DNA of 34,497 nucleotides, taken from positions 1 through 34,497 of the forward strand of contig JAFWAT010000029.1 of NCBI GenBank assembly GCA_017507525.1, given 5' to 3'. How positions within the stretch are numbered: the first letter of the stretch is position 1; each line of letters opens with the position of its first letter. Below the pieces are notes generated by a model. That model had not been told where the DNA came from. It was given only the letters and a program-made list of their open reading frames with translations, and did no database searches. Shown piece after piece: positions 7,299 to 12,124 of the stretch. The DNA is from Clostridia bacterium. GTDB taxonomy: Bacteria; Bacillota; Clostridia; UBA1381; UBA9506. Made by a program: the position numbers and the translations under genes.

Positions 7299-8051
7299 AT
7301 GGAAATGGTACTGTTAACAGCCGTTGGTGTGGGTGGTGCTACGGTGTTTGGCGCACTGATTGGCTTTTTGTTTAAGGGTATCTCCCATAAATTTTCTGAT
7401 ATTGTCCTGTCCTTTGCGGCAGGGGTCATGCTGGCAGCTGCGGTGTTGGGGCTGGTTGTGCCCTCTTTGGAGTATGGCGGAAAATACGGCATTATTATGA
7501 CTGTCTGTGGCATTTTTGCGGGTGCTGTTTGCCTGAACTTCATTGATAAGTTGGTTCCGCATTTACATAAACTGGTGGGACCTGACATAGAAGCCCATCG
7601 CAATGCAGACCTCAGCAAAGTGCTTTTGTTTGTGATGGCGATTGCCATTCATAATCTGCCGGAGGGAATTGCTGCCGGTGTGGGCTTTGGTTCTGATAAC
7701 GCTTCGCAGGCGTTTTTAATTGCCGGCGGTATTGCTTTGCAGAACATCCCCGAGGGCATGGTGATTATTGCCCCCATGCTGTCAGCCGGCATTACGCCCA
7801 AGCGCACGTTTATCTGTGCGGCACTTACCGGACTTGTTGAGGTAGCGGGTACGCTGATTGGTTATTTTGCCGTCAGTGTATCTCAGGCGATTCTGCCTTT
7901 TGCCCTGGCATTTGCCGGGGGCACCATGCTTTATGTCATCAGCGATGAAATGATTCCTGAAACCCATGCACACGGAAGCGAAAGAGGTGCAACCTATGCC
8001 CTTTTGGTTGGATTTTGCGTGATGCTGATTTCAGATGTGCTTTTGGGTTAA
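7299..8051 (+). CDS. ZIP-family divalent metal transporter (GufA/ZupT type)
   Basis: Membrane transporter that probably imports Zn2+ or related divalent metals. The 250-aa protein has about eight hydrophobic helices. The metal-path motifs are HNLPEGIAAGVGFG (TM4) and LQNIPEGMVIIAP (TM5), and a His-containing loop PHLHKLVGPDIEAHRNAD lies between TM3 and TM4. The C-terminal part has DEMIPETHAHGSE. The start at 7299 has GGGGGAG 8 nt upstream; the ATG at 7294 is out of frame. It is followed after 20 nt by a TrmH-family gene, so co-transcription is likely. The structured leader and own promoter suggest regulated expression. Metal specificity cannot be read from sequence. Confidence 0.92.
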   Translation: MEMVLLTAVGVGGATVFGALIGFLFKGISHKFSDIVLSFAAGVMLAAAVLGLVVPSLEYGGKYGIIMTVCGIFAGAVCLNFIDKLVPHLHKLVGPDIEAHRNADLSKVLLFVMAIAIHNLPEGIAAGVGFGSDNASQAFLIAGGIALQNIPEGMVIIAPMLSAGITPKRTFICAALTGLVEVAGTLIGYFAVSVSQAILPFALAFAGGTMLYVISDEMIPETHAHGSERGATYALLVGFCVMLISDVLLG

Positions 8052-8071
8052 TTGGTTAATTGGAGGATGCT

Positions 8072-8851
8072 ATGATACAGGAAATTACCAGCAGTGACCA
8101 TAAACTGGTTAAAAAAATAGCCAGTTTAAAAGAAAAGAAATATAGAGAGCGGTACGGAGAATTTTTGGTAGAAGGCGCACTTTCGGTTGAATGGGCACTT
8201 TCTTCACCCTATCAGGTTTCAGACATCGTGTTTTCAGAGAATTTTTGTCTGCCGGACAGCTTGCGTCAAAGCCTTGAGGGTCGGAGCTTAGTTAAGGTGC
8301 CAAATCATATTTTTGCCAAAATGGCAGACACCAAAACGCCGCAGGGAATCTTGTGCACCTGCGCTCTGCCAACTGTGCCGGATGCACCGGAACAAGGGCT
8401 TTTTGTATATTGCGATCGGGTACGCGACCCGGGAAATTTAGGAACCATTATCAGAACGGCAGACGCCATGGGTTTTGATGGGGTTATACTATCGCCGGAC
8501 TGCGTGGATCCTTACAACCCGAAGCTGGTGCGCTCGACCATGGGTTCGCTGTTTCATGTTTCCCTCTTTGACGGCATCAGCTATGACGATTTGATTGCGT
8601 GGCAAAAAAACGGCTTTCAGTTGGTGGTGTCGGCGCTATCTGAGGCTTCCGTCAGCCCGGACAAGCTGCGGCTTTCCGGCAAAACGGTTATCGTTATGGG
8701 GAATGAGTCATCAGGGGTCTCTCCGACACTCATTGCCTGCGCTGACAGTGTGGTGAAAATCCCTATGGCAGGTAGTGCGGAATCGTTGAATGTAGCAGCG
8801 GCTGCCGCCATTTTGATGTATGAAGCTGCAGGACGGCTTAATAGAATTTAA
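8072..8851 (+). CDS. TrmH/SpoU-family RNA 2'-O-methyltransferase
   Basis: SAM-dependent SPOUT methyltransferase, probably modifying ribose 2'-OH in 23S rRNA. The 259-aa protein has an N-terminal L30e-like substrate-binding region (ITSSDHKLVKKIASLKEKKYRE at 4-25; FLVEGALSVEWAL near 33-45) and the three SpoU motifs: NLGTIIRTADAMGFDGVIL, VIVMGNESSGVS, and IPMAGSAESLNVAAAAAILMYE, the last forming the trefoil-knot SAM site. The start ATG 8072 has GGAGG 5 nt upstream; the in-frame TTG at 8060 would put the SD inside the gene. It lies between the ZIP gene and tadA with short gaps. Confidence 0.92.
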   Translation: MIQEITSSDHKLVKKIASLKEKKYRERYGEFLVEGALSVEWALSSPYQVSDIVFSENFCLPDSLRQSLEGRSLVKVPNHIFAKMADTKTPQGILCTCALPTVPDAPEQGLFVYCDRVRDPGNLGTIIRTADAMGFDGVILSPDCVDPYNPKLVRSTMGSLFHVSLFDGISYDDLIAWQKNGFQLVVSALSEASVSPDKLRLSGKTVIVMGNESSGVSPTLIACADSVVKIPMAGSAESLNVAAAAAILMYEAAGRLNRI

Positions 8852-8865
8852 AAGGAAATGGTCGA

Positions 8866-9306
8866 ATGAACAATCAGTTTATGCAAGAGGCGCTTTATGA
8901 GGCAAAAAAAGCTGCAGAGGCAGGAGAAATTCCTGTTGGAGCAGTCATTGTGCAGAATGGAGAAGTGATTGCCCGGGGGCACAACCTGACTGTGGAAAAA
9001 GATAATATTCTTGCTCATGCAGAATTTCTTGTGATTGAAGAAGCTCTGCATAAACTTTCCAAAAGAAGGTTGTCCGGTTGCTCGCTGTATGTAACCTTAG
9101 AGCCTTGCGCCATGTGCGCCGGGGCTATTTTACTAGCGCGACCCGACAGAGTATATTTTGGGGCATACGATGCAGCTGCCGGTGCCTGCGGCGGCAAGCA
9201 TGATGTACTTTCAGGCAGCGGCATTGAGGTATATGGCGGTATCATGGAAGAGGCGTGTTCTCACATTTTGCAGTGTTTTTTTAAGGATTTACGAAAGAAC
9301 TTGTAG
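8866..9306 (+). CDS. tadA: tRNA-specific adenosine deaminase
   Basis: Deaminates adenosine 34 to inosine in tRNA-Arg(ACG), which is needed to read CGN codons. The 146-aa protein is a typical zinc-dependent deaminase: H51-A-E53 supplies the zinc-binding His and the catalytic Glu, and P80-C81-A-M-C84 the two zinc-binding Cys. RPDRVYFGAYDAAAGACGG matches the TadA substrate loop. GGAAATGG with AAGGAAA precedes the ATG. It is the last gene of the ZIP/TrmH group; the tandem repeat region begins about 35 nt after its stop. Confidence 0.95.
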   Translation: MNNQFMQEALYEAKKAAEAGEIPVGAVIVQNGEVIARGHNLTVEKDNILAHAEFLVIEEALHKLSKRRLSGCSLYVTLEPCAMCAGAILLARPDRVYFGAYDAAAGACGGKHDVLSGSGIEVYGGIMEEACSHILQCFFKDLRKNL

Positions 9307-9340
9307 GTTTATGAAAAAAACGCTGGAAAACAGATTGTTT

Positions 9341-9619
9341 TTGTGATATAATGAACGCATACCTTAATAAATTTTAATATGTTGCGTTCATTGCACCACA
9401 AATAACCTTAAAAAGTTTAAATCGGCAATTTGTGGTATAATGAACGCATACGTTAATGAATTTTAATAGGTTACGTTCATTGCACCATAAATTACCTTAA
9501 AAATTTAAATCGGAAATTTATGGTATAACGAACGCATACCTTAATAAATTTTAATATGTTGCGTTCATTGCACCACAAATAACCTCAAAAATTTTAATTT
9601 GTAAATTTGTGGTGTAATA
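9341..9619 (+). repeat. Three tandem copies plus a partial copy of an ~89-bp double-palindrome element
   Basis: Units start at 9341, 9430 and 9518 (89, 88 and 89 bp), with a fourth partial copy at 9607. Each opens with an extended -10-like TGnTATAAT (TGTAAT form in the last) and carries the palindrome ATGAACGCA ... TGCGTTCAT. Adjacent units are linked by ACCACAAAT ... ATTTGTGGT, which becomes ACCATAAAT ... ATTTATGGT at the 2-3 junction, so both arms changed together. No ORF is present. It lies directly upstream of ftsK and may supply promoters, an operator or transcript structure. Confidence 0.85.
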
Positions 9620-9670
9620 AAAATGATTTTATCAAATAGGTTTACGAAAGATAAAGGAGATATGATATAT

Positions 9671-12124
9671 ATGGCAGCGAAGAAAAAGAAAGCGACTGCA
9701 AAGCAAAAGAAAGGAAAACAGCAGGCTGAAACAACCATGATGAACGAGATTGTTTCATTATTGATTATTGTAGCAGGCTTGCTTTTGGGTGTGTTTTTAT
9801 ATGCTCCCAGCGGTGTTGTTGGCGAGGCCATCAAAAGCTTTTGCACCGGTCTTTTGGGGCTCCCTGCTTATGCTTTGCCGGTTTTAGTACTTGCCTTTGG
9901 CATTCACCGTGCGATTGGTAAAGGGTTTGAAACACATAAAAATAAATATACGCAGCTCTCACTGATTCTTTTGGTGCTGTCTGCTTTATTTCAGCTTTTT
10001 TCTGGAGATGCAGGGGCGAATCCCTTTTATAATATTTCCTCTTATTGGGAATGGGGTAAAATCGGCTGGGGCGGTGGTGTTTTAGGCGGTTTTCTTTGTG
10101 ATATATTTGCGGCAACAGCCGGACGGATTGCTGCCGGTATTATTTTATTTGCAGTGCTCATCATTTTAGTGATGATTTTAACAAAGTGGTCACCCTTGAA
10201 AGCGTTTTTGCGGGTGATTGTTCGCTTGTTTGTTGATGTAAAAGCTGTTCAGAAAAAGGCGGCAGAGGAAGCAAGAAAAATAGCGGCAGAAGAGCAGGAA
10301 CAGAGCGCAGCATCTAGACCGACAAAACGGAAGATGCCGAATTTCAGCGATGAGGAAGTTGTATGTTCTTCCAGCGAAACGGCAACACCTTTGGTAATTC
10401 CCAAGCCTTACGATGATGCTAGCTATATTCCGGAGTCGATTCGTGACATTCCCGTTGACGGTGATGCCCTTGGCTATGATTTTCAGGAGCTGGACGCAAT
10501 TTTAGATCAGGTTGTGCCGGAAGAATTTAAGTCAGAGCCGGAAGCGGCTGCCGCATCGAAAGCATCTGATTTTGCAGAGGAAACAACCAAAACAGAGCTT
10601 CAGACCAAGGCAGAATCTCTCTCAGCAGAAGAAGCAGAAGAAATTGTTCAGGAGCTGGATGAAGCTTTTGAAAAAATTCCCTATACATACCCTGACATTA
10701 CGCTTTTAGACCGCGCATCAACTGATTTTGACAGCGCTGATTCCCGTACAGAATTAAGGGAGACGGCAACCAAGCTGATTTCGACTTTAAAGAGCTTTAA
10801 TGTTGAGGCAAAGCTTTTAAATGTCAGCAAGGGTCCCACCGTTACCCGGTATGAATTAAAACCCGGTGAGGGCGTTAAAGTCAGCAAAATCGTAGGTCTT
10901 TCCGATGACCTTTCTCTGCGCCTTGCTACCACCGGTGTTCGTATTGAAGCCATCCCCAACAAAGAGGCTATCGGCATTGAAATTCCCAATAAAACCGTTT
11001 CGGCAGTCAGTATTCGTGAGGTGTTGGATTCTGATGAATTTAAAGGCTTTCCTTCAAAGCTTGCCTTTGCACTTGGCAAAGATATTGCCGGTAAGAATAC
11101 GGTCGTTGACCTTGGTAAAATGCCACACTTGTTAATTGCCGGCACCACCGGTTCCGGTAAGAGTGTTTGTATTAACACGCTGATTACCAGCATTATTTAT
11201 AAGGCAGACCCTAACGAGGTAAAGCTTTTAATGATTGACCCCAAGGTGGTTGAGCTGAATGTGTATAATGGCATTCCGCATTTGATGATTCCTGTTGTAA
11301 CCGATCCCCGTCGCGCATCCGGTGCCCTTTACTGGGCGGTGCAGGAAATGACTCGGCGTTATGCTATGTTTGCTGAAAGCAACGTACGTGACATTAAGGG
11401 TTATAACGAAATGATTACCGAAAGCGGCGGCGAGAACACCATGCCGTATATTGTTATCATCATTGATGAGCTTGCTGATCTTATGATGGTTGCGCCCGGT
11501 GAGGTAGAAGATTCTATCTGCCGTTTAGCGCAAATGGCACGTGCTGCCGGTATGCATTTGGTGGTTGCAACCCAGCGCCCCTCGGTTGATGTTATTACCG
11601 GTCTTATCAAAGCTAACATTCCCTCCAGAATTGCCTTTGCGGTGTCTTCTCAAATTGACAGCCGCACCATTTTAGATGCTGCCGGTGCCGATAAACTCTT
11701 GGGTCGCGGTGATATGCTGTTCTCTCCTGTGGGCTCGGCAAAGCCTACGAGACTCCAGGGTGCCTTTATTTCCGATAAAGAAAGAGAAAGAGTTGTAGAC
11801 TTTATTAAGAGCGGTCACACGGCGCGGTATGATGAAGATGTTTTAGAAAAAATTGAGAACGGTAAAACCGTGAATATCTCCGGCCATGACGATGATCCAG
11901 GGGATAGTGACGAGCTTCTGCCCCGTGCAATTGAAATTGCTGTTGATACAGGTAAAATTTCAGCTTCCTATCTGCAGAGACGCTTAAAAATCGGCTTCTC
12001 CCGTGCGGCAAGAATTGTTGACCAGATGGAAGAACGCGGCTGGATTGGACCTCAGGATGGCAGCAAGCCCCGAGAGGTGCTGCTTTCTAAAGAAGATTAT
12101 TTAGAAATGAGCATCCAATCATGA
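9671..12124 (+). CDS. ftsK: DNA translocase FtsK/SpoIIIE
   Basis: Membrane-anchored ATP-driven DNA pump that moves chromosomes through the closing septum, and into the forespore in spore formers. From ATG 9671 it is 817 aa: a lysine-rich N-terminus, four hydrophobic helices within about residues 10-165, an acidic linker rich in Glu/Ala (about 190-350), the RecA-like motor with Walker A GTTGSGKS (491-498) and Walker [11 protein letters not shown] (Asp near 599), and a C-terminal winged-helix gamma domain ([19 protein letters not shown]) that reads orienting DNA motifs. The start is 9671 because AAAGGAG (9653-9659) is only 2 nt from the ATG at 9662. Its TGA overlaps the ygiQ ATG. SpoIIIE and FtsK cannot be separated by sequence alone here. 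Confidence 0.95.

Follow-up and report, generated by a model that had tools for sequence, protein, structure and literature searches.

The repeat array upstream of ftsK/spoIIIE is very probably made up of a non-coding mobile cassette with two hairpins, present in three tandem copies, which integrates at the -10 element of sigma-A promoters. The cassette is dispersed, the same place is filled in some genomes and empty in others, and a native -35 element lies 17 bp (16–18 bp) from the consensus TATAAT at its left edge. We further observed its position and orientation, the covariation of arms that include parts of both -10 copies, the shuffling of hairpin modules in a relative, and a second, unrelated cassette family with the same landing site. 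The window, i.e., the whole stretch of 34,497 nucleotides that was analysed, is contig C5 of G000, a 1.36-Mb draft genome that is 96% complete.

The array and its neighbours

TRF reported a period of 89 with 3.1 copies and 86% matches at 9340–9618, and a repeat search of the region upstream of ftsK gave spacings of 89 and 88. The initial annotation had described three units of 89, 88, and 89 bp; read from the -10, these are the three head-to-tail cassettes listed in Table 1, which lie between tadA (8866–9306) and the ATG of ftsK. Both neighbours had been named correctly, as Pfam found FtsK_SpoIIIE and gamma domains in the ftsK product and confirmed the tadA-like gene. An extended -10 indeed opens every unit, in the form TRTGNTATAA(T/C)GAACGCA, and the GAACGCA/TGCGTTC arms are present, with TACGTTC in unit 2. 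What had been taken for a partial fourth unit is the right-hand -10 with a stem arm, which is found in every complete cassette. After the closing hexamer the native leader reads TAATAAAAATGATTTTATCAAATA here and CAATAAATATACTATTGTCAAATA in the related genome G008.

The ends of the cassette, GAACGCATACC and ...GGAAATTTGTGG, are not inverted repeats of each other; the symmetry is internal to each half and relates TGGTATAAT to ATTGCACCA. The latter is a near-inverted copy of the former with the antisense -10 altered to TGCAAT, and it is kept in most units of a 22-unit alignment.

Table 1. Features of the ftsK array (window positions) and RAYT-like genes of the same genome
Feature	Position	Strand	Remarks
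Native -35 of the ftsK promoter, TGGAAA	9324–9329	+	17-bp spacer to TATAAT; the uninserted ftsK promoter of G008 is TGGAAA-N17-TACAAT
Left -10, TATAAT	9347–9352	+	TGA before it, as in relatives; links native -35 to cassette 1
Cassette 1, 89 bp, two hairpins	9347–9435	+	115.2 bits
Hairpin 1 of cassette 1	9349–9393	+	Arms 9349–9358 and 9384–9393; consensus fold, covariation
Central box ATTGCACCA of cassette 1	9390–9398	+	22-unit alignment
Hairpin 2 of cassette 1	9395–9436	+	Arms 9395–9403 and 9428–9436; consensus fold, covariation
Cassette 2, 88 bp, compensated stem ACCATAAAT/ATTTATGGT	9436–9523	+	
Cassette 3, 89 bp	9524–9612	+	110.9 bits
Right -10-like hexamer TGTAAT, closes the array	9613–9618	+	
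ftsK/spoIIIE coding sequence, ATGGCAGCG	9671–12124	+	Shine-Dalgarno AAAGGAG 9653–9659; start conserved in relatives
RAYT-like genes, G000 contig C71	L225 513–905; ~7815–8190	-; +	HUH-motif stretch replaced by GTAG-foot palindrome

Dispersed sites and empty promoters

The search for the unit in the genome and its relatives, which the initial annotation had proposed, placed the cassette at ten sites in G000 with one to four copies per site, copy numbers being uncertain since all assemblies are drafts and several of the relatives are metagenome assemblies. A covariance model found it in 8/10 genomes of the genus and in 11 of the 20 family genomes, and in none (0/75) of the genomes sampled from the order's other families; site counts lie in the tens, and part of the sites are common by descent. 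The relatives include Oscillospiraceae and Clostridia metagenome assemblies, one of them from goat colon. Downstream genes, named from their translated starts with a Pfam check for ftsK and tadA only, include ftsK, dnaA, prfA, rnpB, a phoH-like gene, and a transporter in G000. G008 carries cassettes ahead of the SRP RNA gene and hisS, G005 ahead of a PBP1A gene, parA, and an mcsA-like gene, G006 ahead of tRNA-Leu, and G012 ahead of an integrase. A phage or plasmid origin was considered and rejected, since the window cassette matched nothing in the plasmid and phage collections and its exact pattern did not occur in viral contigs.

At eight loci (ftsK, rnpB, dnaA, prfA, phoH-like, hisS, SRP RNA, and transporter) a close relative has the orthologous promoter free of the cassette, so that empty and filled sites exist side by side, the insertion polymorphism by which MITEs are recognised. 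The ftsK promoter of G008 reads TGGAAA-N17-TACAATAAATATAC and holds no insert. At rnpB, TTGACTTTGCAATTTTATTATGGTATACTGATTCGG in G008 and G002 compares with TTGACTTTACACCGAAGTTATGTTATAAT-cassette-TATACTAATTCG in G000; at dnaA, G008 has TTGATTCTTTCTTGTTGATATGGTATAATATTTTTCCAAGCC and G000 has two cassettes between TATAAT and TGTATTAATTTTCCAAGCC. Comparing copy number, here between related species, the phoH-like promoter holds 0 copies in G008, 1 in G002, and 3 in G000. The prfA promoter, empty in G002, is a hot spot with this cassette in G000 and a different one in G008, while in G001 and G005 other palindromes follow directly after the same -10 as the other insertions. The one at the prfA -10 of G001 (L177) is a near-perfect palindrome, TGGTATAATGAGTGCATACGG-CAAAAT-CCGTATGCACTCATTATACCA, and possibly represents a simpler ancestral state in which a single hairpin had a -10 on either side.

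The ten sites, the insertion polymorphism against close species, and the differences in copy number bear out one of the two readings first offered, that of tandem copies of a small mobile palindrome. The other, an operator array controlling ftsK, is not supported: the unit precedes unrelated genes, and ftsK of close relatives lacks it except in G005, where a degenerate cassette lies in reverse orientation upstream of the gene (L092). An ftsK-specific operator was rejected in view of the ten genome sites together with the uninserted ftsK promoters.

Search for a parent element and a mobilising enzyme

A pattern search with left and right ends found no autonomous copy in the ten genus genomes. 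The right end lies 37–40 nt from nearly every left-end match, the exceptions being remnants or internally deleted copies, and an autonomous parent was rejected because no end was found with a distant partner end. Nearly all end matches in these genomes are the short cassette, and neither a parent insertion sequence sharing the ends nor a transposase or recombinase carrying them was found there. In G001 an internally deleted cassette of 56 bp (L159 712–767) retains the outer arms only and still lies between two TATAATs.

Genes resembling Y1 or RAYT transposases occur in most genomes of the genus, and the cassette could be a REP- or REPIN-type element mobilised by such a RAYT (Y1 HUH) enzyme. 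It is palindromic and non-autonomous, with inverted boxes alternating, and like REP, BIME, and REPIN elements it has alternating inverted hairpins, forms mosaic clusters, and is a possible single-strand substrate (PMC6006769, PMC2817692, PMC3116915). Canonical REPs, however, have a GT[AG]G foot and no tie to promoters (PMC6006769, PMC2817692, PMC3116915); the cassette has no such foot, its boxes being TGGTATAAT and ATTGCACCA. No cassette flanked the Y1 genes in the stretches inspected, and no IS200/IS605-type ends common to an active TnpA (Y1) element were found. Both RAYT-like genes of G000, one of them still open as a 130-aa frame, lack the HUH core and have in its place a GTAG-type palindrome, GTAGGGGCGATTC[AG][CT]GAATCGC[CT]CCTAC, and the cassette-richest genomes (G000 and G005) have defective RAYT copies only. 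We consider this origin unlikely. The local Y1/RAYT genes seem to belong with GTAG-type REPs and, being found with such palindromes and without flanking cassettes, were rejected as the partner.

The -10 hexamer as the probable landing site

At nearly all sites the cassette follows a TATAAT and is oriented with the promoter. A -35 with at least 4/6 matches to TTGACA, 16–18 bp from the -10, was present in the left flanks of 23/40 sites compared to 13.6% in shuffled flanks, and at 0/19 internal and 0/30 right-hand junctions. When TTG was scored at each spacing, one sharp peak appeared, at 17 bp. For the window cassette, TTG stood exactly 17 bp upstream of TATAAT at 16/35 sites, and at none of the 22 internal junctions; the value for other TATAATs was 98/581 (17%), a background taken from stretches fetched around cassette loci, which are promoter-rich, so that the test is conservative, if anything.

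A second cassette family is unrelated in sequence (TATAAT-TGGCATA...TATGCCAA-TTGACGG...CCCTTGCAAGCAAG...TGGTARAAT) and was found in 12/20 family genomes. It also begins directly after TATAAT, with TTG at exactly 17 bp in 24 of 25 distinct sites; its loci are L273–L302, e.g., L283 1350–1600 (G000 contig C12) and L292, in the prfA promoter of G008. In most left flanks of the two families a TG also stands a single base ahead of the -10 (89% and 70%; background 16%).

As in IS200/IS605 derivatives, the cassette follows a fixed short target in one orientation at nearly all sites. Every cassette closes with another TRTGG and TANAAT-like hexamer, so that a -10-like hexamer stands on both sides, and this hexamer also behaves as part of the cassette hairpins, whose feet in the aligned units are TATAAT/ATTG and ATTGCACC/TGGTA; it may thus belong to the cassette instead of being a classical target-site duplication. 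At rnpB the right-hand hexamer TATACT is identical to that of the native promoter, so that an insertion immediately 5' of the -10 would account for the site as well as one 3' of it. The link to promoters proposed by the initial annotation is real, but its kind differs: the cassettes occupy promoters that existed before them and have a native -35, and at the internal junctions an extended -10 occurs with no -35.

Selection for a regulatory array, made of operators or tandem extended -10 promoters that tune growth genes (dnaA, ftsK, rnpB, PBP1A, parA, hisS), would be in keeping with junctions that are nearly all TRTGNTATAAT extended -10s, with most sites being directed at a gene, and with the many housekeeping genes downstream. 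Housekeeping promoters may simply be common targets, however, and the downstream genes are mixed, with a tRNA, transporters, and an integrase among them. The -10s on the right-hand side are often degenerate, as in TGTAAT, TGTATT, and GATAAT, and the sites vary between close species, with empty promoters at the eight loci. Taken together, we regard such an array as very unlikely.

Covarying hairpins

At the unit junctions, units 1 and 3 have the stem ACCACAAAT/ATTTGTGGT, and unit 2 has ACCATAAAT/ATTTATGGT. That both arms had changed together, as first noticed here, is confirmed and exceeds chance: among 22 units from eight genomes pairing holds in 96.9% of cells, 8/19 pairs show double-sided changes, and the covariation score was reached in 0/500 shuffles. 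The compensatory change is real but not local to ftsK, since the C-G/T-A exchange recurs throughout the family. TAATGAACGC and GCGTTCATTG form helix 1, ACCAYAAAT and ATTTRTGGT helix 2. Helix 1 includes the AAT of each -10 box, which in cassette 1 lies in the left arm of hairpin 1, and helix 2 includes the TRTGG of the next extended -10, which there lies in the right arm of hairpin 2. A single unit folds with z = -4.7 as RNA and -5.4 as DNA.

Stable, covarying hairpins would also be expected of a structured RNA, either a 5'-leader riboregulator or a small RNA, and the left promoter would transcribe the cassette. With the AAT of the -10 lying upstream of the start, however, transcripts would be without the full helix 1, and the hairpin modules are exchangeable. 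Non-standard cells comprise 6 G-T (one fixed T.G pair left out) and 8 A-C, i.e., the two departures are about equally frequent. No Rfam 15 family reached its gathering score, the best relevant match being the dfrA-dnaX RNA with 37 bits against 48.6; as only weak dfrA-dnaX and microRNA matches below the gathering scores were obtained, identity with a known RNA was rejected. A role as RNA is highly unlikely. The stems are probably needed as DNA, because part of helix 1 precedes any start from the same -10 and because the departures from Watson-Crick pairing show no RNA-type wobble bias.

Comparison with known elements

The cassettes work like non-autonomous palindromic mobile elements. We assign them neither to MITEs nor to REPs or PATEs, since for each of these classes some defining features were looked for and did not hold. 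MIRU-VNTR loci of mycobacteria are likewise dispersed intergenic units of 50–100 bp with variable tandem number; neither -10 targeting nor covarying two-hairpin units are known for them.

MITEs with promoters (Correia, BrickBuilt, MITEAba12; PMC10969869, PMC4596501) resemble the cassette in being short, non-coding, palindromic, intergenic, and mobile, and some of this type carry sigma-70-like promoter sequences and tandem internal repeats (PMC10969869, PMC4596501). Their descriptions include terminal inverted repeats and a parent IS family, and they bring their own promoters (PMC10969869, PMC4596501), whereas neither such repeats nor a parent IS were found for the cassette, and it lands at an existing -10 with the host -35 kept. 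YPAL/RU-2 of Yersinia is also a palindromic mobile repeat with internal inverted repeats and empty and filled sites; its targets lie at or next to dyad symmetry and its target duplications are variable, but, unlike for the cassette, a -10 specificity is not described in PMC2229807. PATEs, derivatives of IS200/IS605 (PMC7290912; mechanism in PMC6006769), share with the cassette the hairpins near both ends, an oriented insertion beside a short fixed target on one strand, and possibly the lack of a classical duplication (PMC7290912, PMC6006769). The cassette differs from them in that no Y1 gene with cassette ends was found, the hairpin directly abuts the target, and no guide sequence was identified. 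No -10-targeted palindromic cassette appears in the MITE review (PMC10969869), the review of small mobile sequences (PMC2229807), or the HUH/RAYT survey (PMC6006769); such cassettes are undescribed in the literature searched by full text, the coverage of which is partial, so that this absence is no proof.

A proposed landing site that would spare the promoter

We read the cassette as a selfish element with a promoter "safe-site" strategy. Integration would occur at the -10 hexamer or immediately 3' of it, with the result that the promoter survives and the cassette joins the 5' leader. The left promoter would remain formally complete, transcription is predicted to start inside hairpin 1, and the leader would become ~89 nt longer per cassette. 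As each integration would recreate the -10 target, further copies could land and tandem arrays could build, with block duplication helping. The hairpins may act as DNA, as the substrate of a putative recombinase supplied in trans. The benefit would fall mainly to the cassette, for which a place to land would exist at all times and be tolerated even in front of essential genes. Judging from the promoter consensus, the internal TRTGNTATAAT junctions are possible extra extended -10 promoters lacking a -35, and a correctly started RNase P RNA would need the extended -10 to fire at internal junctions. The central ATTGCACCA mirrors the -10 in inverted form, and since its hexamer has become TGCAAT on the antisense strand, an antisense promoter would be avoided there.

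Mobile elements are usually thought to harm the promoters they hit. Here several unrelated cassettes follow a common rule in that they land at the -10 of a working promoter whose -35 is exactly 17 bp away, and they leave the promoter formally intact even before essential genes, e.g., ftsK, dnaA, and the RNase P RNA gene. If this holds, it is a natural case of promoter-directed integration and a way in which tandem promoters and long 5' leaders arise throughout a gut-bacterial family, and it raises the question whether insertion is guided by RNA polymerase or by the DNA melted by it. We put forward, as a speculative and rather doubtful option, that cassettes are joined by a single-strand-specific recombinase into the non-template strand where RNA polymerase has melted it, immediately 3' of the -10, the target being the sigma-A promoter itself. 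TTG-N17-TATAAT would then be the targeting signal, recreated by each insertion, and the system a bacterial parallel to retrotransposons that home to RNA polymerase III genes.

Mosaic arrays and copy number

In G005 and G018 the arrays are mosaics of exchangeable hairpin modules. Hairpin-1 types (GAACGCA, AAACACA, GAATGCA...) combine with hairpin-2 types (ACAAAT..ATTTG, GGTGTGTAGCAAGCC..GGCTTGCAC) in a way that varies by unit, and the boundaries are constant, TGGTATAAT and ATTGCACC, with minor variations. Two-unit blocks are repeated in some G005 arrays, and thus recombination also adds copies. Units in G000 diverge by 0.09 within an array and by 0.117 between arrays, and since the two values are nearly equal, the sequences favour repeated insertion over recent slippage. 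A passive minisatellite, i.e., one promoter-proximal sequence amplified by slippage or unequal recombination, would account for the head-to-tail units and the repeated blocks, but it is extremely unlikely, as this divergence speaks against it, the ten dispersed promoter sites and species-specific insertions are left unexplained, and the empty sites refute it as a full account, leaving it as a contributor to copy number.

As to the direction in which arrays grow, in the four G000 arrays with at least two complete copies the last copy is further from the consensus than the first, a number too small for a claim. Arrays of small hairpins joined by CATGAATTG or GCGATATA were also seen directly after the cassette's right-hand TATAAT (TATAATGAGTTCAAG...), at L026 (G000 C63) and at L127 and L128 (G003).
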